A stretch of DNA of 64,000 nt from Onthophagus taurus (lineage: Eukaryota; Arthropoda; Insecta; Coleoptera; Scarabaeidae), in NCBI RefSeq assembly GCF_036711975.1, contig NC_091971.1, positions 15,383,501 to 15,447,500 on the forward strand. The letters are read 5' to 3'. This document shows, piece by piece, positions 9,841 through 52,500 of the stretch. The translations under genes and the position numbers were made by a program. Every line of letters begins with the position of its first letter. The first letter of the stretch is position 1. The notes beneath the pieces are model-generated. The model ran no database searches. It was given only the letters and a program-made list of their open reading frames with translations, and was not told the origin of the DNA.

Positions 9841-9844
9841 TAAT

Positions 9845-27533: not shown

Positions 27534-30435
27534 CAAAATTTGAAGATTCGAAGAAATGATTTTCAGTACATCACATACAAAATAAATTTGCTTTAAATTG
27601 CTTTTTATTTTATGATGATATCTCAATTAATTTTTGAGATACGATTTTTTTTAAATTTATATTTCATATCTATAACAATCAAACATACAGAATTTTTTAT
27701 TTAAAAAATCATAACAACCATGTTTATGGAAAATAAGAAATTATTTATGGTACATTAAATCTTCATTGAATTTGCTTTAAATTGCTTTTTATTTCATAAC
27801 GATATCTCAATTAGTTTTTGAGATACGTACACATTAATTACCCTAATATCTGTTTAAGGTTATGCAAGGTTGCAATGAAAAAATTATAATTCCGAAATTT
27901 GAAGATTCGAAGAAATGATGTTCAGTGTATTAAATACTAAATAAATTTACTTTAAATAGCTTTTTATTTCATGATGATATCTTAATTAATTTTAGAGATA
28001 CGACTTTTTTAAATTTAGATTTCATTTCTAAACAATCAAACATGCAGATTTGGATTTAAAAAATCATAACAACGATGTTTATGTAAAATAAGAAATTATT
28101 TATGGTGCATTGAATATCCATTAAATTTGCTTTAAATTGCTTTTTATTTCATGGCAATATCTCAATTAGTTTTTGAGATATGTATAGATTAATTACCCTA
28201 ATATATATTTAAGATTATGCAAGGTTGCAATCAAAAAATCATAATTCCGAAATTTGAAGATTCGAAGAAATGATTTTCAGTGTATTAAATACTAAATAAA
28301 TTTACTTTAAATTGCTCTTTAGTTCATGATGATATCTTAACTAGCTTTTGAGATACAATTTTTTAAAATTTATGTTTCATTTCTATAACAATCAAACATG
28401 CAGAATTATATTTAAAAAATCATAATAACGATGTTTATGGAAAGTAAGAAATTATTTATGGTGTATTGAATCTCCATTAAATTTGCTTTAAATTGCTTTT
28501 TATTTCATGACGATATCTCAATTAGTTTTTGAGATATGTACAGATTAATTACCCTAATATATATTTAAGATTATGCAAGGTTGCAATCAAAAAATCATAA
28601 TTCCGAAATTTGAAGATTCGAAGAAATAATTTTCAGTATATTAAATACTAAATAAATTTACTTTAAATTGCTTTTTATTTCATGATGATATCTTAATTAG
28701 TTTTTGAGATACGATTTTTTAAAATTTATGTTTCATTTCTATAACAATCAAACATGCAGAATTATATTTAAAAATTCATAATAACGATGTTTATGGAAAG
28801 TAAGAAATTATTTATGGTGTATTGAATATCCATTAAATTTGCTTTAAATTGCTTTTTATTTCATGGCAATATCTCAATTAGTTTTTGAGATATGTACAGA
28901 TTAATTATCCTAATATATGTTTACGATTATGCAAGGTTGCAATCAAAAAATCATAACTCCGAAATTTGAAGATTCGAAGAAATGATTTTCAGTGTATTAA
29001 ATACTAAATAAATTTACTTTAAATAGCTTTTTATTTCATGATGATATCTTAATTAATTTTAGAGATACGACTTTTTTTAATTTAGATTTCATTTCTAAAT
29101 AATCGAACATGCCGATTTGGATTTAAAAAATCATAACAACGATGTTTATGTAAAATAAGAAATTATTTATGGTGCATTGAATATCCATTAAATTTGCTTT
29201 AAATTGCTTTTTATTTCATGGCGATATCTCAATTAGTTTCTGAGATATGTATAGATTTATTACCCTAATATATATTTAAGATTATGCAAGGTTGCAATGA
29301 AAAAATCATAATTCCGAAATTTGAAGATTCGAAGAAATGATTTTCAGTGTATTAAATACTAAATAAATTTACTTTAAATTGCTCTTTAGTTCATGATGAT
29401 ATCTTAATTAGTTTTTGAGATACAATTTTTTAAAATTTATGTTTCATTTCTATAACAATTAAACATGCAGAATTATATTAAAAAAAAAATCATAATAAGG
29501 ATGTTTATGGAAAATAAGAAATTATTTATGGTTCATTAAATTTGCTTTAAATTGCTTTTTAGTTCATAACGAAATCACAATTAATTTTTGAGATACGTAC
29601 ACGGTAAAAAATATAGAGTGTTTTTTTTAGAGTAAATTTTATTCTATTCTTTCTTGCTTGAACACGTGTTGATGTGAAAACAAGGCGTGTTGTTCAGTTT
29701 GTACTCAACGGTATGTGGATATCTTAAATGTATTCAAAGTGCAATTTCCTATTAAAGAAGACTTAAATATTATAGATTTAAATCTTCTGATGTATAAGGA
29801 GCCGTTCAATTTAGCGCAAACTCAATTAGAGGCTGATTTTTATTTGGTATTAAAATATGGATTTATATTTTAGTTTGTTTTCGTGTTAGTAGTTTAAGTG
29901 TTTTGCATTAAAAATGACACCTGCATGTGATTTTGTTTTATAATATTAGTCTGCTTACTTAAATATAGCGACTTAGTATATCTTAAGATAGCATAAATCC
30001 AATTATTTATTCGATTGTTCAGTTTTTACAATAATAAACCTATTTTGTGAACACTGTCTATTTTCTTATAACTCTATTTGAATATACCTAAATCTAATTT
30101 TGAGTATATTGCTAAATCTACGTAGATTGTAGCATTCTATTAAGAATATACTAATTTCGAGGGCATTGTAAAATCTGTATAGATTATAATTTCAACTCTA
30201 CCGAGATTTAATATGTAATCTGTGTTTACTCATTGTAGAGTTAATAATTCACTTTGTCATAGATTCATTTAATCTCTAAAATTTGCTCTAACAACCGATT
30301 GAAATATTTACTCGAAAAATGCATGAACCTCCTGGAAACATGTTAGATTTAAAACAGAGTTAGTTATTTTTTACCGTGTACAGATTAATTACCCTAACAT
30401 ATGTTTAAGCTTGCAATCAAAAAAATTATAAGTTG
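27534..30435 (+). repeat. Satellite E, dimeric ~355-bp period, interrupted
   Basis: The landmark ATGCAAGGTTGCAAT recurs at 27862, 28217, 28573, 28929 and 29284, a spacing of 355-356. Each unit holds two half-copies of GCTTTAAATTGCTTTTTATT followed by a TATCTCAATTAGTTTTTGAG block, giving monomers of about 178 bp. The array is split by a MITE at 29600-30378, and its tail resumes at 30379-30435. The same sequence appears inside the tandem units at 2120-6482. Confidence 0.9.
29600..30378. mobile_element. 779-bp MITE inserted in satellite E
   Basis: The ends CACGGTAAAAAATA (left) and TTTTTTACCGTG (right) are inverted repeats. TA flanks both sides (29598-29599, 30379-30380), and joining the flanks restores uninterrupted satellite E (GAGATACG-TA-CAGATTAATT). 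A GTAC duplication with ends ACGG...CCGT fits equally well. No transposase is visible inside. Confidence 0.75.
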
Positions 30436-30887: not shown

Positions 30888-33800
30888 TCACCTATTTTTT
30901 TGAGTATTTAGGTCTTTCTGTTTCTCTTGGTACCGTTTCGATTGCGAGTAAAGTTTTTGAAAAATAGCTGCGATATCTTTTTCCGGAAATAACGTGCATA
31001 TTATATCCTCCAATAAAACATAAAGCAACCTTCGATTTAAAATTGGTTTTTGAAACAATTCGAATATTGTTAATAGGCCCTTTCTTGTTGTTTCAGAACC
31101 AATTATATGTTTTAATTCATCTAATAAATGTGTTGAATTAAAAATAGTATTTATTTATTGATTTATTTACCTGACAAACATGATAACAAAGCCGATTTCG
31201 CTGCAATTCTTGTACGATATTTAACACTTTCATCTCTATCTGGTTTCTTTTCCGCTTTCATTCCGTTAGGCCAAAAAGAATGTCTAAAAAAGTTTTTTAT
31301 TAATAAATATTCGTGCAAAAACAGTATTTATACTTGAAAACGTGTAAATAATGAGCTACATTCTTAGGACTAGTTATTAAAGAAACATAATCTAAAATAC
31401 GTCTATTGACTATATCACCAAACATTGTTCTGACTATTTGTCGAAGTAACGTGACTATTCTTCTTCTTAACCACTGATTTCTCGATTTTAAATCAAATAC
31501 TTCATCCATTAATAACAACATTATCCTTAACGGTATATTATCATCACTCTAATTAAGAAAAAGTTTTTGATTTTTATTTATTTTTTATTAAAATCAATAG
31601 CACTTACTTCTGTATCCAGAGATGACGAAACTTTGCTAGTTTCTTGCATCTTAATTCCTTGTTTAGTATGGAAAACTTTATTTAAACTATCCACAACTTC
31701 ATCCATGGTATTAAAAATTTGTTCCGGCATATTTTTTATTGATTTCATTCCGGATTTTAATGGATTTACGATTGAATCAATCTTAAATACATTTTTTATT
31801 TTAAATTTTTAACAATAATTATAGTAAAACCTCGATATAACGGATTAATACAGGGAAGGGAGTGTTCGTTATATGAAAAATTTTTAATTTGCACATTAAA
31901 CTGTTTGAATTAATAATTTTTATGAACACAAATTCTGAGAGCTATTCACACCGTTGTGTTCAGTCCACGTGGCGTTATATTTATACTAAGGATGGTAGAA
32001 TTTAAGAGGACTGCTACACCTTATTACTTCAGGAAGGAATAGAGATTTTTAAGTGCGGCTTTGGTCATGAAAAAATCATACGTTTCGCTATAAGTTCTGA
32101 AAATTTCATTAAAAAATGTTAAGAATTCGATTTTTCATGATTTTTTCAAAATAATGAAAAACGTTGGTAACGTTATAAATTGAGGTTGAGTTCAAACTCT
32201 ATTATCTCAGGAACGAATAGAGATTTTCAAGTGCGGCTTTGTTCATGAAAAAGGTCATACGTTTCGCCATAAGTTCTGAAAATTTCATTAAGAAATGTTA
32301 AGAATTCAATTTTTCATGATTTTCTCAAAATAATGAAAAAAATTGGCAACGTTATAAATTGAGGTTGAGTTCAAAAACTATTATCTCGGGAACGAATAGA
32401 GATTTTCAAGTGCGGCTTTGTTCATGAAAAAGGTTATACGTGTCGCTATAAGTTCTGAAAATTTCATTAAGAAATGTTAAGAATTCTATTTTTCATGATT
32501 TTCTCAAAATAATGAAAAAAATTGGCAACGTTATAAATTGAGGTTGAGTTTAAAAACTATTATCTCGGGAACGAATAGAGATTTTCAAGTGCGGCTTTGT
32601 TCATGAAACAGATCATACGTTTCGCTATAAGTTCCGAAAATTTCATTACGAAATCTTAAGAATTCGATTTTTCATGATTTTTTCAAAATAATGAAGAAAG
32701 GTGGTAACTTTATAAATTGAGGTTCAGTTCAAAAACTATTATTTCAGGAAGGCATAGAGATTAGTGGTGTGCCGTCTCGTCTCGTTTTCGAGACTGCTAG
32801 AAGAAGTGTATAAATTACTAGTCGACTTTCAAATACTTTCCAAGAAACTCGGAGGAGGGAAGTACGTCAAATTACCTATGGTTGTTGTATGTATCAATAT
32901 ACTAATAGATAATACTGAAAGCAAAATATTTGCATGGGACCGAAAGGCAGATCGAAACGCTGTCGCAGAGCAGCTTATTGTTGGTTTTCAGGCTGCGAAA
33001 GACAAAATATTAAAGGATTATCGTAAAACTAATTAGATATATGCTGCAGTTTTAATTCTCGATTCGCGGCATAAGATAGAAGTTTTTGATATGACAAGAT
33101 GAAGCCAAGAATTAAAAGAGACTTCGATTCAGAAATTTAAAGATGTATACAAAGCCTATTTCTATCAATCAGCTACACCTTATTACTTCAGGAAGGAATA
33201 GAGATTTTCAAGTGCGGCTTTGTTCATGAAAAAAATCATACGGTTCGCTATAAGTTACGAAAATTTCATTAAGAAATGTTAAGAATTCGATTTTTCATGA
33301 TTTTTTCAAAATAATGAAAAAAGTTGGTAACGTCATTAATTGAGGTTGAGTTCAAAAACTACTATCTCAGGAACGAATAGAGATTTTCAAGTGCGGCTTT
33401 GTTCATGAAAAAGATCATACGTTTCGCTATAAGTTCCGAAAATTTCATTAAGAAATCTTAAGAATTCGATTTTTCATGATTTTTCCAAAATAATAAAAAA
33501 AGTTGGTAACGTTATAAATTGAGGTTGAGTTCAAAAACTATTATCTCAGGAACGAATAGAGATTTTCAAGTGCGGCTTTGTTCATGAGAAAGATCATACG
33601 TTTCGCTATAAGTTCCGAAAATTTCATTAGTGTTTTAGACGTTTTATTCATGCAAGAATGTTTAATTTTCTTAAGTGAATAAAATGCATCTAAAACACGC
33701 ATGCAATACAACGTTTTATCCACAATCACACTCATTTAGAATCAGAATCGCCAAAATTTCATCTGATGTTATCAAAAATGATTTTACATTTCACTCTGAC

Positions 33801-36800
33801 AGCGGCTGTCACCTCAAAAATCATTGCAATTAACTAAAAAACCATGGGGAGATGTTTAATTGTTGCTATTTATTTTCGATTGTTTACCGACTCCATTTGT
33901 AACATATTTGTAAGAGTGCGAAAGTTGTAAAGGTAAAGTTGGTGAAAAATGGAAGAAAGTGATTATGTTCCCAAGATAATTCTTGAGGAAGCTGAGGAAG
34001 CAACTGTCCAATTATTGCCTGCAAAGTCCAGGGAATATTACGAAAAAGTAGTTTAATGAATGGAAAGAAAAACGGGGGGTAATAACAATAAATGAGGAAG
34101 TCTTGCTATCCTATTTCTTAAATTTGAAGAAGAGGTATACAATTTCATCCATGTGGTCGAAGTATTCAATGCTGAAAGCCGCTATAAAGGTCTATAAAAA
34201 CATAGACATAGGAAAATATAGTAAGCTCATAACCTACTTGAAGAATCAGTCAAAAGGATACAAGGCGAAGAAATCTGCAGTGTTGGAAAGAACACACGAC
34301 AAAGAGTTTTTGACAAGGGCTTGCGATAAAGAATATTTGATGATCAAGGTAATCTCTCTTAACCTTTTGGATATTATATATAATAAAATTTTGAAATATA
34401 TTAGGTTGCACTAATAATGGGGGTGTCTGGTGCTTGTCGATGCTATGAACTGACTAATTTGAAAATTAGAGATATAGAAAATAGGGGCGCATATTTGATT
34501 GTTTCGATATCAGATACCAAGACAGGTATTTCACGAAAATTTACAATTATAGAAGAAGGATTTTCTATCAATACTGTGGAGACGTGTAAATACGCTAATC
34601 AAAAATGTACTTCACAACCTGTTGGAATTAACACTTTGTCGAAAGTTCCTTCAACAGCTGCTTCGTTTTTGAATCTGCCAAATGCAAAAACTTATAGTGG
34701 CCATTGTATGAGGCGCACTTCAACAACTTTACTTGCCAATAAAGGTGCCCACCTTACAATAATTAAACGACATGGTGGGTGGAGGAGCTCTGGCATAGCA
34801 GAAACAATAGAGATTTTCAAGTGCGGCTTTGTTCATGAAAAAGATCATACGTTTCGCTATAAGCTCCGAAAATTTCATTAAGAAATCTTAAGAATTCGAT
34901 TTTTCATGATTTTTTCAAAATAACGAAAATAATTTTCAACGTTACAAATTGAGGTGGAGTTCAAAAACTATTATCTCAGGAACCAATAGAGATTTTCAAG
35001 TGCGGCTTTGTTCATGAAAAAGATCATACGTTTCGCTATAAGCTCCGAAAATTTCATTAAGAAATCTTAAAAATTCGATTTTTCATGATTTTTTCAAAAT
35101 AACGAAAATAATTTTCAACGTTACAAATTGAGGTTGAGTTCAAAAACTATTATCTCAGGAACCAATAGAGATTTTCAAGTGCGGCTTTGTTCATGAAAAA
35201 GATCATACGTTTCGCTATAAGCTCCGAAAATTTCATTAAGAAATCTTAAGAATTCGATTTTTCATGATTTTTTCAAAATAACGAAAATAATTTTCAACGT
35301 TACATATTGAGGTTGAGTTCAAAAACTATTATCTCAGGAACCAATACAGATTTTCAAGTGCGGCTTTGTTCATGAAAAAGATCATACGTTTCGCTATAAG
35401 CTCCGAGAATTTCATTAAGAAATCTTAAGAATTCGATTTTTCAGGATTTTTTCAAAATAACGAAAATAATTTTCAAAGTTACAAATTGAGGTTGAGTTCA
35501 AAAACTATTATCTCAGGAACCAATAGAGATTTTCAAGTGCGGCTTTGTTCATGAAAAAGATCATACGTTTCGCTATAAGCTCCGAAAATTTCATTAAGAA
35601 ATCTTAAGAATTCGATTTTTCATGATTTTTTCAAAATAACGAAAATAATTTTCAACGTTACAAATTGAGGTTGAGTTCAAAAACTATTATCTCAGGAACC
35701 AATAGAGATTTTCAAGTGCGGCTTTGTTCATGAAAAAGATCATACGTTTCGCTATAAGCTCCGAAAATTTCATTAAGAAATCTTAAGAATTCGATTTTTC
35801 ATGATTTTTTCAAAATAACGAAAATAATTTTCAACGTTACATATTGAGGTTGAGTTCAAAAACTATTATCTCAGGAACCAATACAGATTTTCAAGTGCGG
35901 CTTTGTTCATGAAAAAGATCATACGTTTCGCTATAAGCTCCGAAAATTTCATTAAGAAATCTTAAGAATTCGATTTTTCATGATTTTTTCAAAATAACGA
36001 AAATAATTTTCAACGTTACAAATTGAGGTTGAGTTCACAAACTATTATCTCAGGAACCAATACAGATTTTCAAGTGCGGCTTTGTTCATGAAAAAGATCA
36101 TACGTTTCGCTATAAGCTCCGAAAATTTCATTAAGAAATCTTAAGAATTCGATTTTTCATGATTTTTTCAAAATAACGAAAATAATTTTCAACGTTACAA
36201 ATTGAAGTTGAGTTCAAAAATTATTATTTCAGGAACCAATAGAGATTTTCAAGTGCGGCTTTGTTCATGAAAAAGATCATACGTTTCGCTATAAGCTCCG
36301 AAAATTTCATTAAGTAATCTTAAGAATTCGATTTTTCATGATTTTTTCAAAATAACGAAAATAATTTTCAACGTTACAAATTGAGGTTGAGTTCAAAAAC
36401 TATTATCTCAGGAACGAATAGAGATTTTCAAGTGCGGCTTTGTTCATGAAAAAGATCATACGTTTCACTATAAGTTCCCATAATTTCATTAAGAAATCTT
36501 AAGAATTCGATTTTTCATGATTTTTTCAAAATCCGAACGTTTCTTGTTCTAAGTCTAGCGTTAGTTCCAATAACGCTGAATAACAATTAAAACTAGAATT
36601 AACATTAGACCTAGAACTAAAAACATTCGGGTTTTGCAGTGCGTTTGAAGACAGAATATCCAAAGTCCGTTATATCGAAGTTTTACTGAATTAAATTATT
36701 AATTTATTACTGTATGTGAAATAGGACCACCAGATGCTTGTCTATCATATTCTCCTTGTTCCAAAAATGTCATAAGTAATTCTCTAAGTCCGTGATGCGA

Positions 36801-39800
36801 TTTTACGGTGTATTCTTGACACAAACTTTTCATATAATATCCTAACATTTGCATGCGACGTTCTAATACAGCACGGTCCATATTATGGAATGTCTTTTTG
36901 CCTGGGAATGGAATTTTTGATAAATCAGGAAACTAAAAAAATATGAATTTATTATATAGTACTAAATCGAAATGATATTGTTTGAAATTAATTAATTTAC
37001 CTTGTCTTTAACTTTTGTACATAAATCATGAAAATCACTATATCTCCTATAAATATGCCATTCATCCAAAAAACCATTTGTGTACTGCCTACTGACATGT
37101 ACGGCATAAATACCAAATGTTTTTCCCTTTTCGCAAACAATTCCAGTTTCGATAATATTAACGTTAAGCACAAAATCGCCAATTCGTAAATCTTTACTTT
37201 TCTCCTCGACACTTTGAATCATTGAGTCATCCTCCAAATTTTTTTTTAACGATTCTTCTGGGGTTGGAGTATTTTCAAATCGATCATTTCTTAATGCAAA
37301 ATCGGATACATCACTTAATGATCGTACGTGTTTCATACTTTTTTCAGGTTGTACCAAAAGAACATCTCCGCTGTTATTTAACTTTGTCTGTTTTCTTTCT
37401 TGTTCTTGATTTATTTTTTCATCTTCTAAACCTTCAAGACTATTCAAACTTACCGAATCTTCTTCGGCGGGTTGTTGTAGCAATTCCAATTCTTCTAAAA
37501 GCTTAATATAAGATCGACTTTTTTTAAACGAAGGTAAATAATCATCTTCGGTTTTTAATTTTTCGTAAATTTGAGTTTGAATATCATCGAACCATAACTC
37601 GGTTGGTTCTTCGGAAACATTTTTTATTTTAAAATATAATTTATGCACTAATCCCGCATTAATATCAAGTTTTTGTTCTTTCCGATCGCCTAAATATTGA
37701 TCATAAAGACTCAAAGCCGTGGCACGAATCGTTTCGAAAATCGCATTTGAATTATCATTGACCCCTTTTATTTTATTTATATGAACGTTACTTAATTGTT
37801 GCTCAACCGAGATTTTCCAGCCTTCAATATTTAAATAAAAGAATAATAAAAGGTGTTTATCTTGCAGAGAAACGAAATCTATAAAATATGATAAAGCGAC
37901 GCTATTTGCCAAGATAAAATGTAATGGTAAATCGATTGTTTTTATATTTTCTAAAGGTAACGGGAGATCTTGGGATGTATCCTGATTGTTAGCTAATTTT
38001 GAGAGGCGATTATCAATTAATTTTGTTACATAATATAAGCTGCTTAATTGTTGCTTTATGGATAAATCGCTGTCACCACCAGAATCGCGCGAACGCTACA
38101 AAAAAAATCATTAATATTTAATCGGTTGAATTAATTATTTAAGTACCAAAATTTGTATTTCTTTTTGTACAATTTCCCTTGCGTATTTTAATTCATCACA
38201 ATTGTCTGTTATTCTTAGAGTTGTTAAAAACATATCGCTTGGTAATGAAGTATCTCTTAAACACTATTAAATAAAATAAAATTATAAATTATTATTCATA
38301 TAACAAATGTATTCATTTGAGAGGAACTAATTAATTATAATTAACCTTCATAAGACCGGCGGGGTATAAATATAACTCAGAAAATTAATTTGTAATTTAT
38401 TTGCAGTGCTTTTGGAAATGTGTTGGATTGTTTGTTCTTGAGGAGGATGAAGATCATTTTCTATTGCTATAAATAGCTTATTTTGAGAATTTATAAAACG
38501 TTGCGAATTCAATGTTTGCAACCAGAAGGATTGTATTCAAATATACTAATTACCAGAGATGTGACTTATTTGAAATACAAAATATAAATACAAAATACGT
38601 ATTTAGTATTTCAAATACCATTCCACTAAAAGTATTTTGTACATTATCTAAGATACTTTTAGTTTCTTGTATTTTGAAAATACTAAACTATTTGAATAAA
38701 AATGAAATTCTAAAACGGATAAATGAACTTCTGAAACTTTAAATAGAGGATTTTTAATTAATAATTGGTGATATTTCCACAAGGATCCTTCAAGAAATTG
38801 CAACATCGAAAATTTGATCAAAACTTCAAATATTGTTTTTTCAAAAACTAAAAGTTATTTTTCAAAACGGGTTGGTTCATTGGAAAGAGGACGTTCTTAT
38901 TAAACGGTTGTGAAGTTAGCCATAGATTCTAGCCATAGATTTTAAAATCGAAAAATGACCGATTTCTGCAACTGAAAATGCAAATTAAAATTAATATGTG
39001 AGTTTAGCACTCTTAGAACAACCCCTATACAAAAATTTACGGGGGGGTGTTTTCATTTAAGGGAGTAAAAAAATCCCAAAGTCGTAAACATCGCGTGCGC
39101 GCGTATACTGTTCGACTAAAATCGAAAAATCACCAATTTCTGCAACTCGAAATGCAAATTAAAATTCATATTTGAGTTTAGCGGTCTTAGAATAACCCGT
39201 ATACAAAAATTTACGGGGGGGTGTTTTCATTTAAGGGAGTAAAAAAATCCCAAAGTTGTGAACATCGCGTGCGCGCGTATACTGTTCGATCAAAATCGAA
39301 AAATGACTAATTTCTGCAACTCAAAACGCAAATTAAAATTAATATTTGAGTTTAGCACTCTTAGAACAACCCCTATACAAAAATTTACGGGGGGGTGTTT
39401 TCATTTAAGGGAGTAAAAAAATCCCAAAGTCGTAAACATCGCGTGCGCGCGTATACTGTTCGACTAAAATCGAAAAATCACCAATTTCTGCAACTCGAAA
39501 TGCAAATTAAAATTCATATTTGAGTTTAGCGGTCTTAGAATAACCCGTATACAAAAATTTACGGGGGGGTGTTTTCATTTAAGGGAGTAAAAAAATCCCA
39601 AAGTCGTAAACATCGCGTGCGCGCGTATACTGATCAACTAAAATCGAAAAATGACCAATTTCTGCAACTCGAAACGCAAATTAAAATTCATATTTGAGTT
39701 TAACGGTCTTAGAATAACCCGTATACAAAAATTTACGGGGGGGTGTTTTCATTTAAGGGAGTAAACAAATCACAAAGTTCTGAACATCGCGTGCGAAATG

Positions 39801-42800
39801 AAAAAACATAGCCTCAAAATGATCGGCAAATAAGTTAACTACTGTGTGCAAATCGGACACACTTTCATCGGCCCACTTCAGAGAGCCTGGAGATCTTATA
39901 TTGTTTTTGCTTATGTTAACAAAACGCCAAACGTTTTTTGGTTCTTTTCTTATGTCCCTCAGCGATTTGACATAAACTTGTGCGATGATATCTGCCATGA
40001 GTTTTTCTATACAATTTATGGTGGTGTTTTTTTAATCTAAGCATTCTTATTAGGTTAATTGAATGCCATACAGGATATTTCGAGCTTGCATGCTTGCCCT
40101 CAGATTTAAGTACGTGAGCGTCCAGGTCGTTGTATAATGCGTCATAAAAAACATTACAGTATTGTTCAACCGATGATAACGTAAATAGATGAGTCCAGTC
40201 GATGTTAAGCAGTGCCTCGTACATGTCAGGCAGATAAGATAACATTTCGAGCTATCAAATGCGTAGGCACCGTTACCGCAATAGTAAGTAGTAATGCCGA
40301 TTGGTAATTATCTTCTCGTACCAATGTAAAGTCTGACTGTTTAATTTGAAACTCAAGTTTGAGGAAGCAAGTATCAAATCAAGAGTTCTATCAATGATAT
40401 TCATTACATTATTTAATTGCAGAAAGTCATTATTACTTCAATATTAAAATCACCCATGACTATGGTATCCAAAGACATATCCAACATTGATTCAATGTAA
40501 TCGAAGGTGTAACTATACATACATTGCTCCAGGTGTAACAGGTGGGAAATAGCAGACAACAATGTTAAAAGCCGATTTCGTCTTTTTAAAGTCAATCCGT
40601 ACAGCTTTCAAGACAATTGATTCAATAGGACAGGAGGCAATCATGATATTCGAAGTAGCAACTCTGGAATTAACAGCCAGTAACATCTCTCCACCCTTAT
40701 GGAAAGATCGATCACATCTAAAAACGCGCAGCATACAATGAATTTTTACATAACAATTTAATAGGCCTGCTTGACCATGTACCTTTAGAAAACAGATGTA
40801 ATGTGGCTTTCCAGCATGATGAATGCCTTGCACACTATTCCCAAAATGTTGAAAATTCATTAAATGAAATGTTTCCTAATGGTTGGATTGGGAGAGGAGA
40901 TCCAATTCCATAAACTGCAAGGAGTCCTGATTTGACGCCCCTTTATTTTTATGTGTGGGGCCACATGAAAGAAAGGGTGTATGTATTACACAAGTCAACT
41001 TTAAGGATGAATTAATAGAAAAAATCAAAAACGAAGCATATGTTTTAAAAACGTTAATCACAATTACCCCCCCATAAATTTTTGTATAGGGGTTGTTCTA
41101 AGGTCGCTAACCTCAAATATTAATTTTAATTTGCGTTTCGAGTTGCAGAAATTAGTCATTTTTCGATTTTGGTCGAACAGTATACGCGCGAACGCGATGT
41201 TCACAACTTTGGGATTTTTTTACGCCCTTAAATGAAAACACCCCCCCGTAAATTTTTGTATACGGGTTATTCTAAGACCACTAAACACAAATATGAATTT
41301 TAATTTGCATTTCGAGTTGCAGAAATTAGTCATTTTTCGATTTTGGTCGAACAGTATACGCGCGCACGCGATGTTCACAACTTTGGGATTTTTTTACTCC
41401 CTTAAATGAAAACACCCCCCCGTAAATTTTTGTATACGGGTTATTCTAAGACCGCTAAACTCAAATATGAATTTTAATTTGCGTTTCGAGTTGCAGAAAT
41501 TAGTCATTTTTCGATTTTGGTTGAACAGTATACGCGCACACGCGATGTTCACAACTTTGGGATTTTTTTACGCCCTTAAATAAAAACACCCCCCCGTAAA
41601 TTTTTGTATACGGGTTATTCTAAGACCACTAAACACAAATATGAATTTTAATTTGCATTTTGAGTTGCAGAAATTAGTCATTTTTCGATTTTGATCGAAC
41701 AGTATAAGCGCGCACGCGATGTTCATAACTTTGGAATTTTTTTACTCCCTTAAATGAAAACACCCCCCCGTAAATTTTTGTATACAAGTTATTCTAAGAC
41801 CGCTAAACACAAATATGAATTTTAATTTGCGTTTCGAGTTGCAGAAATTAGTCATTTTTCGATTTTGGTCGAACAGTATACGCGCGCACGCGATGTTCAC
41901 AACTTTGGAATTTTTTTACGCCCTTAAATGAAAACACCCCCCCGTAAATTTTTGTATAGTGGTTGTTCTAAGAGTGCTAAACTCAAATATTAATTTTAAT
42001 TTGCGTTTTGAGTTGCAGAAATCGGTCATTTTTCGATTTTAAAATCTATGGCTAGAATCTATGGCTAACTTCACAACCGTTCTTATTAACACTTTGGGAA
42101 ATTTTCATACTCATATTCCAAGAACTGGATTTTATACGAATTTTTAAAACTTAATCTGCGAAAATTTCAAAATTCGGAGTTTATTTCAAAAATTTATTTC
42201 TCAAGAATTGAAAGTGATTTTTCAAAATGGTTTTTTGCATTAAAAAGAGGATACTTTAATTAATAATTGGTGATAATTCCACAAGGATCCTTCAAGAAAT
42301 TAATTTTAAAGCGAATTTTGAAAATTATCGATGAAAATTGCAACAACGAAAATTTTATCAAAACTTCAAATATTGTTTTTTCAAAAACTAAAAGCTATTT
42401 TTTAAAATGGGTTGGTTCGTTGGAAAGAGGACACTTTTATTAACACTTTGGGAAATTTTCATACTCATATTCCAAGAACTGGATTTTACACGAATTTTTA
42501 AAACTTACTGTGCGGAAATTGCAAAATTCGACAAAATTGTCGTTCATTTCAAAAATTTTTTTCTCAAGAACTGAAAGTAATTTTTCAAAACGGCTTGTTG
42601 CATTAAAAAAAGGATTCTTTAATTAATAATTGGTGATATTTCCACAAGGATCCTTCAAGAAATTAATTTTATAGCGAATTTTGAAAATTATCGATGAAAA
42701 TTGCAACATCGAAAATTTTATCCATACTTTAAATATTGTTTTCTCAAAAACTAAAAGTTATGTTCTAAAATGAGTTGGTACATTGGAAAGAGGATACTTT

Positions 42801-45800
42801 TATTAACACTTTGGTAAATGTTCATACTCATATTCCAAGAACTGGAATTTATACGAATTTTTAAAACTTAATCGGCGAAAATTGCAAAATTCGAAAAAAT
42901 TGTCGCTCATTTCAAAAATTTATTTCTCAAGAACTGAAAGTGATTTTTCAAAACAGCTCTGTGTATTAAAAAGAGGATACTTTAATTAATAATGGAGAGT
43001 GATAACTACAGTTCTGTTAGTAATGAATGTGATGATGAATTACAAGCGAAGAGAAGAAAACTAGACAAAACTGCAACAAGAAATTTTATATATCGTATTG
43101 GGATTGTTACAATGAGGTTGCTAATGATAAACCTGATATAAATAAAGTTCTATTCAACGAAAAAAGTCCTGTTGGGGTTGAACTCGATTATTACCTGCAG
43201 TTTCCAACACCTAAAAGACATACTAATTCCTGTGAATGGTGCAGTACTAAGTAATAAGTTTTTAATATCAGGCCAAAGTCGGATATTTGGTAGCTCTCCG
43301 GCCGTATTTTAAAAAATGGCCTGATCGAACATGAGACATAAAACGTCTCTAACATGATTGACTAAAACTTAATAGCAAAGAGCGAGGTTAGACTGCAATG
43401 CAGTGTTGCTATATGTAGGGATTTATCGAATCTAGGGCTTTTTGTTTGTATGGAAAAAAGTTTTATTTCTAGTAGTCGGTTAATTGTGTTATATGAATAA
43501 GCTAATACACCTACGGTTGTGGGAATCCCCGACTCACACGAAGTTGAACGAATTTTAGGAGTTTTAAGCATATTGTTTAAACCTATAAATGGTAGTTCTA
43601 GCCACTTTCTCTATGTGCAAATGCAAAGGAGATAGACCAAGCAGAACATCCATTTTTAGCGTTGGTGTTGTGCTTATCTCACCAGTGATTAAACGCACTA
43701 ATATTACTTAGACTTAGAACAATAAAACTGTAGTATCATGATCTTTAGGTGACTATCTCAATATTGAAGTTATTATTTAAATTTCTACTGAATCGCCCAT
43801 AATGGTTATTATTGAATGTTCGGTTACAAAAGTAACGCGAGAATAATTTAACACATTAAAAATTAAAGCTGCCTTTATGATGGCACGTTGCAGAGTGAAT
43901 TGTGCAGGGAAATTAATCTGCTTGAATCGATTGTGTGTGCGATTTGGAAGGAAAGAGATAAAATAGTGGATAGTCACGAAAGATTGAATTCCGCAGCCAA
44001 TACAATCAAATTTGATGATTTCAACCGACGATTCAAACTGCTTCAAACTAAAGCTGACGAGGAAAATTCGATGCAAGACGGTGAATTTCATTGCAGTCGC
44101 AGTTGAATTGAACATTTGTAATTAACTGATTGCAAGAAAATTGGTCACAAATACGGGAAAATTATGAAGACAAAAACATTTTCAACGTAGAGACATGCCT
44201 TGAAGTAGATAAAAGGGCCAGGTGGAAGAAAGTCTAAAAATGCTTGGACTTAGAAACTGCAAGGCACGAGATAGAAGCTGATCCTAGAACAGGCCAAGAC
44301 CCACCAGAGGTTGTGGTGTCAATGATGAACACTGAACAATGACGAATCTGAAATGAGGAAACCTTTTGTATTTATAATCAAAGAACTACTAGAAGTATTC
44401 TTTCGTTTAGACTTTATTTTCGGATCTGCTCACAGCAATAAAAAGCTGATTGATGTATTATAGAGCTAAGAAGGAGCCTTTTCTCACCCTCTTGGATCAG
44501 CTATTGTCAGTATTTTTAGTTATTGTCAGTAATGTCGCATTCTAGGTTTAAATAAATATTACATTATATTGTATTATAAGCCAACTTCAATTTAGGAAGT
44601 ATTTGCAACGTTTGGATTAAATTGTAAAAAGGCGTACAATCTGGACCAATGGCTATGTGTTGAACAAATATTCATAAGTAATTTAGTAATGATTTCAAAA
44701 GTTTATGGGTTGACTTGTCATATGCTCATTTTGTTTAAACAATGGGTTCTGTATAAGAGAATGGCATTGATTGCTAAATTTGGAATTTTCAATTGATCAC
44801 CAATAAAGCTAACAACCAACTTATGCAATTGAGCCAAACAATTGCAATTGTATTTTTTATTTTATTTTTTATTATTATAAAAATTGAATGAAGGCCTTAT
44901 GAAGGTTAAAATAATGTAGTAAATTTTACCAGCCAAACTATAGCCTGATTAATATAATCAGGATCTGAAATCATTGTAAAAACTGGATAAACAACACAAT
45001 TAGCAAAGATCTCCCTTATTATAAAACGAATTGGTTTACATTGAAAATCATCATCTGGTAAAAGAATATAAAGTAAAATTTCCATGAGTTCACACAAAAA
45101 TTCTAAAAATAATTAATAAATTAGATTAAAACAAATAGTAAAAAGAATATTTAACCTTTCTCTTTATCAATATTAATGGAAATAGAATCTCTACACACCA
45201 AATTCTTTTCCATAGTAAATTCAAGCTCAAAAAAATAATCCTCCAAACTACAATTTTTTCTAGTTTGGTCCTTTGTATAAAACTTATTGTTTCCATGCGC
45301 CTGTTCTACTTCTAAAAATTATTAAATTCATAAAAATATTTACATTCAAAATAATTTTTTAAAATACCTTTACAATCAAGAGAATTTTTATTGACATAAT
45401 GCCAATTTGCATCAGTTTCACTTTTATTTCTTTTATGAGTCTTTTTAGGAGTCCTAACTTCCCTCCTAGGAGAATTTCTAGGTGATTTTGGTATTTCATC
45501 TTGTTTTAATTTCACCCTAGCTTGTTTGAAAAGTCTTAAATGACTAGCAGCATCATCTACCAAGCGAGTTGTTAAAAACGGTATCCAATCTACTTCTTTT
45601 ACCCTAAACAAACAATAAATGAATTTTTAGGTGATAAAAAATTAATAAAACAACCTGTTTGAAATGTTAATAGCGAGAGTTTGTGCAGTTTTCCTTACAG
45701 ATCTTTCAGAAAATTCGCTATCTGTAGAAATTAACCCATACCAAGGGGTAATATGATCCCTAATAATGTAACCCAATATCTCTTGTAAGGAACTATCAAT

Positions 45801-46145
45801 AACATCACTTCCTGTAACACGATTATCTGCTTTTTGAATTTCTTTAGGTGTTAAAAGTTGTTTAGCAATTTTTGATAAACCTCCTTCTATATTATTTTCA
45901 TTAGATAAAGGATTTCCAATACAATTCCTATAAAATTTATCAACATCTCCTTCTTGAATATAAAGTAATGATAATAAACTAAAAAAGAAAATTAATAAAT
46001 AAAAATTAAAAAAACATTAATGCAAAGTTTACCCAATTAAAAAGAAAATTAAACCGATAATCAAAGTTAAACAAGTACACAGCCCAAATGTACTAAGAAA
46101 TAAAACGAAAATAAGCACAGCCCACCCAATAGCTGTCGTATCCAT
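30888..46145 (-). CDS. SNX13: Sorting nexin 13 (RGS-PX protein), twelve exons, 1056 aa
   Basis: By family, an endosomal/ER membrane protein with PXA, RGS, PX and nexin-C domains, involved in lipid and endosome traffic. Exons, 5' to 3': 46145-46033, 45978-45655, 45603-45368, 45311-45156, 45102-44930, 38263-38147, 38095-37001, 36932-36711, 31781-31608, 31548-31334, 31283-31171, 31120-30888. All join in frame with GT-AG. Residues 7-38 are a hydrophobic N-terminal membrane segment. PXA covers about 75-370 (LPDDDFQCKPIRFIIREI, SDPDYINQAIVWL). RGS lies at about 430-570 (NSVALSYFIDFVSLQDK). PX spans about 679-795 across exons 7-8 (WHIYRRYSDFHDL, PFPGKKTF). Nexin-C follows at about 875-1040 (LLLMDEVFDLKSRNQWLRRR, SETTRKGLL). 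The family usually has about 950-970 residues. Introns 5 and 8 (6.7 and 4.9 kb) are filled by transposons; the rest are 37-64 bp, apart from introns 1, 3 and 9, which are also short. The exon 8 donor (ACA|GTAATA) is weak. Confidence 0.93.
32016..33629 (+). repeat. Satellite B, first blocks of copy 1
   Basis: Monomers with GATTTTCAAGTGCGGCTTTG, then TTTCGCTATAAGTTC, run from about 32016 to 32763 and from 33177 to 33629, on either side of a hAT relic. These copies are more diverged than the block at 34804-36530. Confidence 0.85.
32764..33176 (+). pseudogene. hAT transposase fragment inside satellite B
   Basis: A 90-residue frame (LLVDFQILSKKLGGGKYVKL, then AAKDKILKDYRKTN) continues after one stop as IYAAVLILDSRHKIEVFDMT and KFKDVYKAYF. 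'AxILDPRxK' preceded by a KY helix is a conserved hAT transposase region. It is interrupted by stops and flanked by satellite B on both sides. Confidence 0.6.
33630..34803 (+). pseudogene. Crypton-like tyrosine recombinase gene with an intron, truncated by satellite B
   Basis: An ATG at 33949 starts EESDYVPKIILEEAEEATVQ and reaches a stop near 34054. The protein resumes in another frame (34103-34348), then a 56-bp GT-AG intron (34349-34404) joins MIK to VALIMGVSGACRCYEL. The second exon carries tyrosine-recombinase marks: the first Arg box (SGACRCYEL), a central Lys (DTKTGISRK), and box II HCMRRTSTTLLANKG with KRHGGWRSSGIAE. The expected catalytic Tyr after this point is absent, because the frame runs straight into satellite B at 34804. 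A hairpin (33630-33698) lies at the left junction. This architecture matches Cryptons; it is a broken copy. Confidence 0.65.
34804..36530 (+). repeat. Satellite B, homogeneous 179-bp array
   Basis: GATTTTCAAG starts at 34812, 34991, 35170, 35349, 35528, 35707, 35886, 36065, 36244 and 36423: exactly 179 bp each time. Units are nearly identical, indicating recent amplification. They end about 160 bp before the right terminus of the host element. Confidence 0.95.
36531..36688 (+). repeat. Subterminal region of satellite-B element copy 1
   Basis: This unique-looking stretch holds AACTAGAATT/AACATTAGACC/TAGAACTAAAAAC words and the motif ATTCGGGTTTTGCAGTGCGT. The same motif recurs near 10600-10660 (reverse) and near 52085-52125. 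Confidence 0.55.
38740..38903 (+). repeat. Satellite A, left part, split by the foldback insertion
   Basis: It contains the satellite A words TTAATTAATAATTGGTGATA and AAAACTAAAAGTTATTTTTC and stops at TCTTATTAA (38895-38903). That 9-mer is repeated at 42081, where the satellite continues. Confidence 0.9.
38940..39790 (+). repeat. Satellite C, left arm, 174-bp units
   Basis: CTGCAACT(C/G) starts at 38966, 39140, 39314, 39488 and 39662. Units include a G-run (TTTACGGGGGGGTG) and the GC-rich word CGCGTGCGCGCGTATACTG, unusual in this AT-rich window. Confidence 0.95.
39753..40780 (-). pseudogene. LINE endonuclease/linker fragment in the foldback core
   Basis: On the minus strand, 40780-40413 reads CDRSFHKGGEMLLAVNS, then NIVVCYFPP and TIVMGDFNIEV. 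These are endonuclease blocks of CR1/Jockey-type LINEs; GDFN holds a catalytic Asp and Asn. The fragment continues in other frames (40245-39753) as a linker (ALYNDLDAHV, KYPVWHS, NVWRFVNISKNN). Stops and frameshifts break it, and no RT follows. Confidence 0.7.
40781..41059 (+). pseudogene. DDE transposase C-terminal fragment in the foldback core
   Basis: The plus strand reads ECLAHYSQNVENSLNEMFP, WIGRGDPIP, a stop, then ARSPDLTPLYFYVWGHMKER. This matches the DDE_3-type block 'H...HY...V...L...FP.RWIGR.GPI.WP.RSPDLTPLDFFLWG'. The final catalytic Asp region (LTPLD) has Tyr, and a stop replaces the WP motif, so it is dead. Such transposases are allied to IS630/Tc1-mariner, which target TA. Confidence 0.65.
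41060..42045 (-). repeat. Satellite C, right arm, 174-bp units, inverted
   Basis: AGTTGCAG starts at 41141, 41315, 41489, 41663, 41837 and 42011, exactly 174 bp apart. It is the reverse complement of the left arm. Confidence 0.95.
42081..42990 (+). repeat. Satellite A, right part after the foldback element
   Basis: The array continues in phase from the TCTTATTAA duplication and carries about five monomers. It ends at TTAATTAATAAT, exactly where a hAT relic begins. Confidence 0.9.
42991..43570 (+). pseudogene. hAT transposase C-terminal fragments
   Basis: Acidic/basic text (SNECDDELQAKRRKLDK) gives way, in a shifted frame, to YWDCYNEVANDKPDINKVLF and CEWCSTK. At 43490-43570 a further frame reads GIPDSHEVERILGVLS, resembling the 'IPAS-s-ER-FS-ag' dimerisation motif of hAT transposases. 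It is the same relic, with the same satellite A junction, as at 9845. Confidence 0.5.
43571..44892. other. Right portion of the TTAA element, unrecognised
   Basis: There is an open frame of 72 residues at 43888-44106 (ELCREINLLESIVCAIWKER, then FDDFNRRFKLLQTKADEEN). It looks like a helical capsid- or coiled-coil-like fragment, but I cannot place it. The rest is gene-free. Confidence 0.3.
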
Positions 46146-46559
46146 AACTAAAAACCGAACGAAATTTGTTAATTATTAATAAGTATACAAAAAAACCTTA
46201 TTTACTTACGTTTTAACGATGCACCGAGTGTATAATACCTTCTTTTATAGAAGTCTAGATAAGTATGTATACATTTCAATCGGTAAACACGTGATAGGCT
46301 GTAAGAAATCGCTTGTAAACAGCGATTTTTCGAAAAACGATGATAATAAACGTCATGTCAGGGATTTTAAGGTTAACGCGATGACGTCAAATGTTTCGGA
46401 TATGTCAGATGGGTGCCGATATTACACGAACATTACCGAATGTACCGACCGAGTTTCCAATTTGACATTGAACGCCATCTACAACTTAATTCTAAAATAG
46501 GCAGCTTTAGGTTTAAATGAAAAAGTTGTTTTGAGAATAAAATTGGAAATTTTATTAAT
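46146..46559. promoter_or_regulatory. Shared promoter between SNX13 and the TMEM26-like gene
   Basis: These 414 bp separate two opposed start codons. A 93-residue plus-strand frame (46219-46500) lies wholly here and has no recognisable content. It is more likely 5' UTR or chance. Confidence 0.6.
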
Positions 46560-49500
46560 ATGGGTACACTTTTAGCCATTTTAAAGGCTATATTTACACG
46601 ATTAGTGTTTGCCGGGCATGGTTTTATAGCAATTTGGCAAGTTACTTTGTTTAAAAAAAATTATTTTTATTGGTATTTAAGTTCACCGATTATCTTGTTG
46701 TTTTTCGAAGGGCTTTTTACGTTAGCTATTAAAGAAACTCAAGAGTGGAAATGGTAAGTTATTATTATTTTTAAATTAGATTAATTTTTTTACTTAGTTA
46801 TGATTTGTTTTTATTCCTTGGTTATTCATATTTGTAGAGATTATTAGCTTAAAAGCTCTTGGCGATTGACAAGTTCATTTCCGGTTGTGTTTTGTCCCAT
46901 TTGAAAAACGATCAATTTTCGGAAGCTCTTAAGGAATCCTTTTTAGGTTCTGCCCGTCGGTTTTCCTTTACTTATTAAGTGTCATCCCTTCGATTTGGTT
47001 ATTGGAATTAGAAAAAATCGATAAGAACCACAAGATAAAGGGTGATTTTCTTAATGTAACTTTAAACACAAAAGAAAATCTTAAAGAACTCAACAATTTA
47101 ATTGGGGTATTTGCTTAAATGTTACTTTTTTGTTCATAAAAAAAATATTTTTAGGTTGAAATTGAGCTCCCTGAAATTAATTTAAGCACTGAAACATGGA
47201 TTACAGTTATTGAACAGTTTTTGATGTTAATTTTAATCATTGGACGGTGGATGTTACCTAAAGGAGAATTGACTAGGGATCAATTAAGTCAATTGTTGCT
47301 TGTTTATATCGGTTGTTATTTGTTTATTTATTTATTTTTTGGGTTTAAAGAAGTTTTTGGATTTATTTCAGGCACTGCAGCTGATATAATTGAATTTTTC
47401 GACTCTTTTAAAGACGAAAAAGTAGCAATGCACCCAATATTAGTACTTTTAACTCTCAGTATTTGGTCGTGGAGTTTACTCCAATTCACCGTTGTTTTAA
47501 CAGCCACTAAATCAAGAAAGTCGAGATTAACTACAGCGTCTTCGATTAAGTAAACTACTTCAAATTACAGTAAAACCTCGATATAACGGGCAAAATATTA
47601 CCAATTTCTTTTATTATTTTGAAAAAATCATGAAAAATCGAATTCTTAAGATTTCGTAATGAAATTTTCGGAACTTATAGCGAAACGTATGATCGTTATC
47701 ATGCACAAAGCCGCACTTGAAAATCTCTATTAGTAGTATAGTTTTTGAACTCAATCTCAATTAATAACGTTACCAACTTTTCTTATTATTTTGAAAAAAT
47801 CATGAAAAATCGAATTCTTAACATTTTTTAAAGAAATTTTCGGATCTTGTAGTGAAACATATGATCTTTTTCATGAACAAAACCGCACTTGAAAATCTCT
47901 CTTCGTTCCTGAGATAATAGTTTTTGAACTCAACCTCAACGTATAACATTACCAACTGCTTTCATTATTTTGAAAAATCATGAAAAATCGAATTCTAAAC
48001 ATTTCTTAATGAAATTTTCAGAACTTATAGCGAAACGTATGATCTTTATCATGCACAAAGCCGCACTTGAAAATCTCTATTCGTTCCTGAGATAATAGTT
48101 TTTGAACTCAACCTCAATTTATAACGTTACCAACTTTTTCATTGTTTTGAAAAATCATGAAATATCGAATTCTTAACATTTCTTAATGAAATTTTCAGAA
48201 CTTATAGCGAAACGTATGATCCTTTTCATGAACAAAGCCGTACTTGAAAATCTCTATTCGTTCCTGAGATAATAGTTTTTGAACTCAACCTCAATTTATA
48301 AAGTTACCAACTTTTTTCATTATTTTGAAAAAATCATGAAAAATCGAATTCTTAAGATTTCTTAATGAAATTTACTGAACTTATAGCGAAATGTATGATC
48401 TTTTTCATAAACAAAGCCGCACTTGAAAATCTCTATTCGTTCCTGAGATAATAGCTTTTGAACTCAACCTCAATTCATAACGTTATAAACTTTTTTCATT
48501 ATTTTGAAAAATTCATTAAATTTCGAATTCTTAACATTTCTTAATGAAATTTTCGGAACTTGTAGTGAAACGTATGATCTTTTTCACGAACAAAGGCGCA
48601 CTTGAAAATCTCTATTGGTTCCTGAGATAATAATTTTTGAACTCAGCCTCAATTAATGACGTTACCAACTTTTTTCATTATTTTGAAAAATTCATGAAAA
48701 ATCGAATTCTTAACATTTCTTAATGAAATTTTCAGAACTTATAGCGAAACGTATGATCTTTTTCATGAACAAAGCCGCACTTGAAAATCTGTATTCGTTC
48801 CTGAGATAATAGTTTTTGAACTCAACCTCAATTTATAAAGTTACCAACTTTTTTCATTATTTTGAAAAAATCATGAAAAATCGAATTCTTAAGATTTCTT
48901 AATGAAATTTACTGAACTTATAGCGAAATGTATGATCTTTTTCATAAACAAAGCCGCACTTGAAAATCTCTATTCGTTCCTGAGATAATAGCTTTTGAAC
49001 TCAACCTCAATTCATAACGTTATAAACTTTTTTCATTATTTTGAAAAATTCATGAAATTTCGAATTCTTAACATTTCTTAATGAAATTTTCGGAACTTGT
49101 AGTGAAACGTATGATCTTTTTCATAAACAAAGGCGCACTTGAAAATCTCTGTTCGTTCCTGAGATAATAGTTTTTAAACTCAACCTCAACGTATGACATT
49201 ACCAACTGTTTTCAGTGTTTTGAAAAAATCATGAAAAATCGCATTCTTAACATTTCTTAATGAAAGTTTCGGAACTTATAACGAAACGTATGATCTTTAT
49301 CATGCACAAAGCCGCACTTGAAAATCTCTATTCGTTCCTGACATAATAGTTTTTGAACTCAATCTCAATTAATAACGTTACCAACTTTTCTTATTATTTT
49401 GAAAAAATCATGAAAAATCTAATTCTTAACATTTCTTAATGAATTTTTCGAATCTTGTAGTGAAACGTATGATCTTTTTCATGAACAAAGCCGCACTTGA

Positions 49501-52500
49501 AAATCTCTATTCGTTCCAGAGTTTTTGAACTCAACCTCAATTTGTGACGTTACCAACTTTTTTCATTATTTTGAAAAAATCATGAAAATTGCAATTCTTA
49601 AGATTTCTTAATGAAATTTTCGGAGCTTATAGCGAAACGTATGATCTTTTTCATGAACAAAGCCGCACTTGAAAATCTCTATTGGTTCCTGAGATAATAG
49701 TTTTTGAACTCAACCTCAATTTGTAACGTTGAAAATTATTTTCGTTATTTTGAAAAAATCATGAAAAATCGAATTCTTAAGATTTTTTAATGAAATTTTC
49801 GGAGCTTATAGCGAAACGTATGATCTTTTTCATGAACAAAGTCGCACTTGAAAATCTCTATTCGCTCCTGAGGTAATAGTTTTTGGACTCAACCTCAATT
49901 TATGCAATAATTGCAATAGGATATATCCATTTTCACCATGTGTTAATATTTTAAAAGGAAAATTAAGTAATGATACTTTAGTGATAATTTATTAATTTAT
50001 TGTCTATAAACTCCACTCTTGGATAATAGAGGTGTTCTGTCTTTGTTGTTAACCAACAAGTTTCTAATGGTGTTCTTGTTCTTGAAAGACATTATTATAT
50101 TGTTATTGTGAAATATTCTTTTGATTTTGTAGGAAAGGTCTCCCGGGAAGTTAGTCGATCTGTAAGTAGTTTCTGCGTTTTTTGTATTGTCGTGAAGAGA
50201 AGCTGTTTTTTCTAAGTCAAGTTTCCTTTGTATTTTTGCAGTAAGTCTTTGAATTTGTTGGTGTGGAAAACCATTTTTGGTAGCAATTTGTTTGATAATT
50301 TGGAATTCCTTTTGTATTTCTTGTTATTCTAGATTCGAGGTGAAGACTCTATGTATATACGATCTAAAAGCTGCAAATTTTTGGTTGTGATCGTGGTACG
50401 AATCATATGGTATAATAGTATCTACTGGTTTGGGTAGGTTTTCTGTATATATCAAATTTTATTTTATTTTGACAATGTTCAAGTGTGAAATCGAGAAAAT
50501 TGATCTTGTTTTCGATTTCAGTTTCCACTTTAAAATTAATTTTGGGGTGCAGTCTATTTATGTATTCGTGAAGGTTGTTGACCTGATGTTCATCTTTAAT
50601 AAAAACCAGAACGTCATCGACGATCTTATCCATGTTATGATTTCTGTAAGATAAGGATTGTTATTGTTGATAATATAATTTTTCTCTAGATCATCCATAA
50701 ATAGGTCAGCCATGGTTCCACTTAATAGGAATCTATTAATAACTTTACCAATTTTGTTCGTTATTTTGAAAAAATCATAAAAAATCGAATTCTTAAGATT
50801 TCTTAATGAAATTTTCAGAACTTATAGCGAAACGTATGATCTTTTTCATGAATAAAGCCGCACTTCAAAATCTCTATTCGTTCCTGAGATAATAGTCTTT
50901 GAACTCAACCTCAATCAATAACGTTACCAACTTTTTCCATTATTTTGAGAAAATCATGAAAAATCAAATTCTTAACATTTTTTAATGAAATTTTCGGAAC
51001 TTGTAGTAAAACGTATGATCTTTTTCATGAACAAAGCCTCACTTGAAAATCTCTATTCGTTCCTGAGATAATAGTTTTTGAACTCAACCTCAATTTATAA
51101 CGTTGCGAACCTTTTTCATTGTTTTGAAAAAATCATGAAAAATCGAATTCTTAACATTTCTTAATGAAATTTTCAGAACTTATAGCGAAACGTATGATCT
51201 TTTTCATGAATAAAGCCGCACTTCAAAATCTCTATTCGTTCCTGAGATAATAGTCTTTGAACTCAACCTCAATCAATAACGTTACCAACTTTTTCCATTA
51301 TTTTGAGAAAATCATGAAAAATCAAATTCTTAACATTTTTTAATGAAATTTTCGGAACTTGTAGTAAAACGTATGATCTTTTTCATGAACAAAGCCTCAC
51401 TTGAAAATCTCTATTCGTTCCTGAGATAATAGTTTTTGAACTCAACCTCAATTTATAACGTTGCGAACCTTTTTCATTGTTTTGAAAAAATCATGAAAAA
51501 TCGAATTCTTAACATTTCTTAATGAAATTTTTAGAACTTATAACGAAACGTAGGATCTTTTTCATGAACAAAGCCGCACTTGAAAATCTCTATTGGTTCC
51601 TGAGATAATAATTTTTGAACTCAGCCTCAATTAATGACGTTACCAACTTTTTTCATTATTTTGAAAAAATCACGAAAAATCGAATTCTTAACATTTCTTA
51701 ATGAAATTTTTGAAACTTATAGCGAAATGTATGGTCTTTTTCATGAACAAAGCCGCACTTGAAAATCTCTATTGGTTCCTGAGATAATAATTTTTGAACT
51801 CAGCCTCAATTAATGACGTTACCAACTTTTTTCATTATTTTGAAAAAATCATGAAAAATCGAATTCTTAACATATCTTAATGAAATTTTCGGAACTTATA
51901 GCGAAATGTATGATCTTTTTCATGAACAAAGCCGCACTTGAAAATCTCTATTCATTCCTGAGATAATAGTTTTTGAACACAACCCAATTAACGTTACCAA
52001 CTTTTTGTATTATTTGTGTTATTCAACGTTATATTGTTGGATATTTTTATTAAACAAAAACTAGAAATAACACGAGCTAGAACTAGAAACATTCGACTTT
52101 AGCAGTCTTAAGACACGCACGGCTAACCTCGATCAAGATCTTTATTTTATATTATGAACTTTAAGTCTAAACTAACAACATTACAAAACACGAATGGAAT
52201 AAATTAAGCATTTATTGCTTATCTATCCGTGACGTCACGAACGGCCCTTCGAGCTGTTCACCTGATCTCAAAATATAGCACTTCTCTAGATTCCTTCCCC
52301 GTATTAATCTGTTATATCGAGATTTTACTGTATTAAAAACAATTTCAAATTATTAATTTATATTTTTAGTACAAACAATTATTGTTGTGGAATCGACGTT
52401 TGCGGCATAGTAATTAACATAACATTACAAGACGCTCCATTTCTAGTTTTTCGATTATTATTAATAACCCATTTTAATATTATTTCGTACATGAATATTT

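Follow-up and report, generated by a model that had tools for sequence, protein, structure and literature searches.

Two neighbouring genes in a window of 64,000 nucleotides from Onthophagus taurus (the whole stretch of DNA that was analyzed) each contain one intron of nearly 5 kb, most of which is a tandem satellite repeat (satellite B). This raises the question of what these introns are made of and how the satellite came to lie in them. The original prediction was that each intron is almost wholly one transposon carrying the satellite as cargo. The two introns are:

31782..36710, minus strand: intron in the SNX13-type gene with GT..AG boundaries; 4929 bp in total, 62 bp once element 1 is taken out
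47550..52369, plus strand: intron in the TMEM26-type gene with GT..AG boundaries; 4820 bp in total, 57 bp once element 2 is taken out

According to Pfam, the SNX13-type gene has PXA, RGS and PX domains above the cut-offs and Nexin_C slightly below, and the TMEM26-type gene matches Tmem26 at 2.6e-17, 3.4e-35 and 1.2e-19. As predicted, one element makes up almost the whole of each intron (4867 of 4929 bp and 4763 of 4820 bp), and without it the introns shrink to 62 and 57 bp, with the reading frames of both genes continuous over the join. As a yardstick, two further introns of a polycystin gene on C3, which hosts a third element of this kind, are 55 and 49 bp long.

Structure of the two elements

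The following features were assigned:

31822..36688, plus strand: element 1, 4867 bp, non-autonomous, in the SNX13-type gene intron; from paired ends and intron arithmetic
47568..52330, minus strand: element 2, 4763 bp, in the TMEM26-type gene intron; from paired ends and intron arithmetic
31822..31843, plus strand: left terminal inverted repeat of element 1, TTAATA-type end, preceded by TA
36667..36688, minus strand: right terminal inverted repeat of element 1, followed by AA
47568..47589, plus strand: terminal inverted repeat of element 2, preceded by TA
52309..52330, minus strand: terminal inverted repeat of element 2, TTAATA-type end, followed by TA
32022..32762, plus strand: satellite B array of element 1, about 4.1 copies of 179 bp
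33181..33629, plus strand: satellite B array of element 1, about 2.5 copies
34801..36532, plus strand: satellite B array of element 1, about 9.7 copies, more homogeneous than any other (97% by TRF)
47598..49903, minus strand: satellite B array of element 2, about 13 copies; blastn match at 47603-49901
50735..52015, minus strand: satellite B array of element 2, about 7 copies; blastn match at 50732-51995
32763..33180, plus strand: spacer of element 1, hAT transposase fragment by eye, without Pfam match
33630..34800, plus strand: spacer of element 1, containing a truncated tyrosine-recombinase-like frame
49902..50731, minus strand: spacer of element 2, reverse-transcriptase fragment by eye, without supporting Pfam match

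The end sequence CAGTAAAACCTCGATATAAC was found four times in the window at up to three mismatches (31822+, 36688-, 47568+, 52330-) and not once in 100 shuffles. The four ends form two pairs, each inward-facing. Element 2 is flanked by TA on both sides, element 1 by TA on the left and AA on the right, and the left end of element 1 reads TAGT. The TTAATA-type end lies on the left in element 1 and on the right in element 2.

Satellite B is arranged head-to-tail with a period of 179 bp and amounts to about 16 copies in element 1 and about 20 in element 2, distributed over several arrays. Within the window it is confined to these two elements (blastn, E<=1e-8), with all copies on the plus strand in element 1 and all on the minus strand in element 2. 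End pairs and strands thereby confirm that two satellite-B elements with matching ends lie inverted relative to each other. The further claim that satellite B forms the body holds for most of the interior, but the three spacers are also present.

In the second spacer of element 1, an open reading frame (34405-34881) encodes a truncated tyrosine-recombinase-like sequence (Phage_integrase 7.8e-5, below the Pfam cut-off), which we take to recall a Crypton. Neither the spacer of element 2 nor the hAT-looking piece of element 1 gave a Pfam match that supports its reading, and the reverse-transcriptase and hAT readings therefore remain by-eye assignments. Comparison of both elements with the long frames from the 12 top-ranking DDE_1 loci of the genome gave no transposase match, and they are therefore regarded as non-autonomous.

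Three known structures were ruled out for the two elements. MITEs are a few hundred bp long and occur as many copies of one sequence, against sizes of 4867, 4763 and 4236 bp (the element on C3) and three satellite-B copies found. Helitrons and Helentrons have neither terminal inverted repeats nor a target duplication and are excluded by the inverted ends and TA flanks. Foldback elements of the Tetris/Galileo kind are marked by long inverted arms that are themselves repetitive; the arrays of element 1 are all on the plus strand and those of element 2 all on the minus strand.

A separate foldback-like element was observed at 38903-42081 of the window. Its inverted arms of 893 nt are 94% complementary and consist largely of a 174-bp satellite, and a direct repeat of 11-12 bases was seen by eye on either side. 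It was apparently inserted within an array of a 363-bp satellite.

Distribution of the ends and assignment to a transposon family

The genome searched comprised 290.8 Mb in 33 contigs. The exact 20-mer of the end occurs at 319 sites (reversed control 0) and the 22-base end at up to three mismatches at 2,244 sites (reversed control 2), which bears out the expectation of many loci with the same ends. For closer analysis, 20 other loci were fetched, namely 20 of the first 21 exact 20-mer places along C1 (a non-random choice; one partner end was skipped). A partner end within about 9.7 kb is absent in nine of them.

TA precedes 27 of the 32 ends found at up to three mismatches in the fetched loci. 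The background frequency of TA in the window is 0.09. For 15 elements both ends were read (elements 1 and 2, the 11 fetched loci with a partner end, locus L045 and the element on C3), and TA was present at 23 of 30 flanks. The anticipated TA duplications were thus found on both sides of eight elements, including element 2 and the one on C3, but on one side only in the other seven, element 1 among them.

Members of the pogo/Tigger group of the Tc1-mariner superfamily have short terminal inverted repeats beginning with CAGT. The family studied here has short inverted ends of the CAGT type, TA flanks and, in one relative, DDE_1 and HTH_Tnp_Tc5 matches. This relative, L045 on C1, has ends with two and three mismatches 4171 bp apart, which enclose a stop-broken transposase whose pieces match HTH_Tnp_Tc5 (8.5e-9) and DDE_1 (1.8e-28). 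As a consequence, the assignment to the pogo/Tigger type is supported by more than the look of the ends. For the 12 best DDE_1 loci (L029-L040), no end at up to five mismatches was found within about 1.5 kb on each side; four of the 12 have one at six mismatches. Among 65 of the 150 listed DDE_1 matches that were classified (64 of them on C1-C3), three lie inside and one outside a listed end within 8 kb. L045 is the one of the three inside that was read.

Two further observations were made on the ends. At C5:2652403-2660783, 20 end-like sites (AGTTAAACCTCGATATAACGGACT) are arranged in tandem on the plus strand with recurring spacings of 251, 234 and 360 bp, so an end of this family can turn into part of a tandem repeat. 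Furthermore, seven of 21 ends share an outer flank (mostly ...CATGTCAATATAATTTGACATTA before CAGT; L009, L011, L015, L017, L022 at its right end, L025 and L028), as if a single position in a different repeat had received the insertion and this repeat had spread later.

Satellite B in the genome and a third element

A 30-mer of satellite B has 122 sites in the genome at up to three mismatches. Among the 100 of these that were listed, all 17 without mismatch and all 12 with one mismatch lie in elements 1 and 2, as do 8 of the 11 with two mismatches. Of the 60 listed with three mismatches, one lies in the element on C3 and 59 elsewhere. When monomers were compared instead (40 of 493 candidates scored), C3:5891758-5894903 ranked next with 83-90% identity, followed by C8 with 74-84%, excluding a 38-base piece, and by others with at most 80%. 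Among the candidates scored, arrays of satellite B itself reach only about 3.1 kb.

The C3 match belongs to a third element:

C3:5891038-5895273: third satellite-B element, 4236 bp, ends at one and five mismatches (five at the right end), TA on both sides

This element is located in an intron of a polycystin gene (Polycystin_dom 2.9e-20). Without it the intron is 51 bp long and the frame is continuous. The direction of the satellite relative to the TTAATA-type end is identical in all three elements.

Relatives of satellite B form arrays at many other places. At C8, where the flanks were read, no end at up to seven mismatches was found within about 1.6 kb to the left and about 1.9 kb to the right. 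A predominance of satellite B in large arrays without these ends was the observation that the original prediction expected to count against it. It applies in part, since relatives of the satellite form many such arrays elsewhere, C8 being the one whose flanks were read. The closest 30-mer sites (zero or one mismatch) are all in elements 1 and 2. The alternative that the ends are part of every monomer did not occur, as the ends are absent from the satellite B monomer.

In a tree of 15 monomers of element 1 and 19 of element 2 (without C3 monomers and support values), the two sets intermix, and nine monomers from one block of element 1 group with one monomer of element 2. A common origin of the monomers, followed by local amplification in element 1, is therefore suggested.

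Other cargo under the same ends

Satellite B was detected in none of the 20 other loci with these ends (E<=1e-8), which rules it out as the body of the whole family. For the 11 loci with a partner end, repeats with a period of at least 100 cover 17,241 bp of the 42,090 bp between the ends, compared with 8,267 bp of the 67,465 bp beyond them; the nine loci without a partner end within about 9.7 kb were left out of this comparison. The content is uneven, with no such repeats inside two of the 11 loci and more outside than inside in L010 and L023. Long arrays of satellites other than B were found in L012, L013 and L019, and a repeat of about 122-131 bp in several of the 20 loci. The interior of L010 contains a piece of reverse transcriptase (RVT_1 1.1e-14).

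The satellite of L013 also occurs outside its own element, and relatives of 77-80% identity extend over 17 kb on C10. It was dropped as a second clean case of cargo, since it is also present to the left of the element (C1:2024958-2030433), and related repeats occupy longer stretches at other places. Over C1:2024958-2037233, this satellite flanks the left end of the L013 element on both sides, so either the element was inserted in its satellite or two elements with it lie side by side.

Satellites of about 168-183 bp have a semi-palindromic ATATCTCAAAAACTAATTGAGATAT-like box in common, which was observed in the window (7954-9847, 14716-15253 and 27536-29601) and in L012, L013, L016 and L019. 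Of 55 repeat rows, which overlap, 16 contain a box that scores above all 100 shuffles, and five of these are satellite B; the score of the satellite B box itself (19/25 against a shuffle maximum of 17-18) is weak. The box is a possible protein-binding or amplification site.

Origin of the satellite cargo

That satellite B travels as transposon cargo is well supported. The pogo/Tigger origin named in the original prediction agrees with the ends, the TA flanks, the transposase of L045 and the copy on C3, but this cargo is not the rule of the family.

Taken as a whole, the following course of events is considered quite probable. Elements 1 and 2 would belong, as non-autonomous copies, to a cut-and-paste family of the pogo/Tigger type, one member of which may have captured part of the dispersed satellites of about 180 bp in this genome. 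The product, its interior mostly satellite B, would have been carried to TA sites by a pogo-type transposase acting in trans, and would have landed at a minimum in one intron each of the SNX13-type gene, the TMEM26-type gene and the polycystin gene. After insertion, the arrays would have changed in length and become more uniform in place. Elements 1 and 2 may have arisen by a local hop, which fits their distance of 10.9 kb and the fact that they are two of the three copies found. Against this explanation stand the right side of element 1 without TA, the seven of 15 elements with TA on one side, the 20 other loci without satellite B, the C8 relatives without ends and the five mismatches in the right end of the C3 element.

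It is unlikely that transposons free of satellite were inserted first and that satellite B entered each of them later, through circular DNA or gene conversion, without ever riding along. Such seeding would draw on the arrays of satellite B relatives outside these elements, of which C8 was checked, and over only 10.9 kb an exchange between elements 1 and 2 is possible. It is opposed by the polarity shared by all three elements, by the 29 closest 30-mer sites (100 of 122 listed), none of which is in a free array, and by the array of element 2, which begins about 30 bp or less from one end.

Birth of the satellite inside the elements, followed by escape into free arrays, is judged improbable. The tandem end-like sites at C5 indicate that ends can give rise to such repeats, and a published precedent is Tetris of Drosophila virilis (PMC4079207). 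However, the satellite B variant of the box is matched better by other satellites of about 180 bp outside elements, and the satellite of L013 likewise occurs beyond its own element, with the C10 stretch as its relative. Capture of satellite B from an existing satellite family thus appears likelier than birth inside an element, because both the C8 array without these ends and the L013 satellite point to sources outside.

Element length

From at least 413 ends listed, 33 adjacent inward pairs less than 12 kb apart were obtained. Among the first 13 (elements 1 and 2 and the 11 fetched loci), six measure 4867-4927 bp with unrelated interiors and nine 4171-5064 bp. This would fit a length-measuring step that keeps the family near 4.87 kb irrespective of content, and a length scan over all 33 pairs gave p values of 0.0002-0.004, which depend on the smoothing and on a 60-bp window chosen after the data had been seen. 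The cluster did not recur in the 20 later pairs, of which none measures 4867-4927 bp, one 4763-4927 bp and five 4171-5064 bp. Without the four pairs from other routes, p rises to 0.002-0.013 (60 bp) and 0.009-0.065 (165 bp). Within 12 kb there are also 10 outward and 12 same-strand neighbours, which means that some of the inward pairs are due to chance, and the reverse-transcriptase piece in L010 also counts against such a step. A fixed length near 4.87 kb is therefore not upheld, and length gating is very improbable. The same low credence is given to the broader proposal that one kind of pogo-type end pair ferries satellites and transposon fragments in general, favouring an overall length near 4.9 kb. 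If true, mobility would include a length-measuring step resembling the packaging limits on defective virus genomes.

Comparison with known systems and implications

Satellite cargo in transposons is already known, and the three elements described here are a pogo-type member of that kind. miDNA4, a Tc1/mariner MITE of Xenopus, is likewise an element with terminal inverted repeats and a captured internal tandem repeat of variable copy number, and Xstir of Xenopus is a further case (both in the review PMC12628747). In contrast to miDNA4, the present elements have pogo/Tigger-type ends, are 4-5 kb long, fill nearly a whole intron and, in the family, contain several satellites. In the Pacific oyster, dispersed short satellite arrays have been explained as the interior of non-autonomous Cg_HINE Helentrons, in which elements akin to each other contain satellites that may be related or unrelated (PMC7492417). 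Helentrons move by rolling circle, whereas inverted ends and TA flanks indicate cut-and-paste for the elements in the window. The Tetris foldback element of Drosophila virilis is also a DNA transposon with internal tandem repeats (about 220 bp), which occur in satellite arrays as well; these are in its long inverted arms, whereas the arrays of elements 1 and 2 are unidirectional between short ends (PMC4079207). In Tribolium castaneum, dispersed TCAST repeats are enriched in introns and are satellite-like or transposon-like, some with terminal inverted repeats. They are mostly single euchromatic repeats, in contrast to the kilobase arrays between pogo-type ends found here (PMC5844308). Pogo-type satellite cargo is not named in the titles and abstract openings found by literature search, in which subscription papers are thinly covered.

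The elements offer a single-base view of one route by which satellite arrays can enter gene-rich DNA, as cargo of TA-targeting cut-and-paste transposition. The introns in which such elements land measure 50-62 bp without them, and the genes remain in frame over the join once the element is subtracted. Since loci with the same ends hold different satellites, the capture, travel and local amplification of satellites can be studied within one genome.
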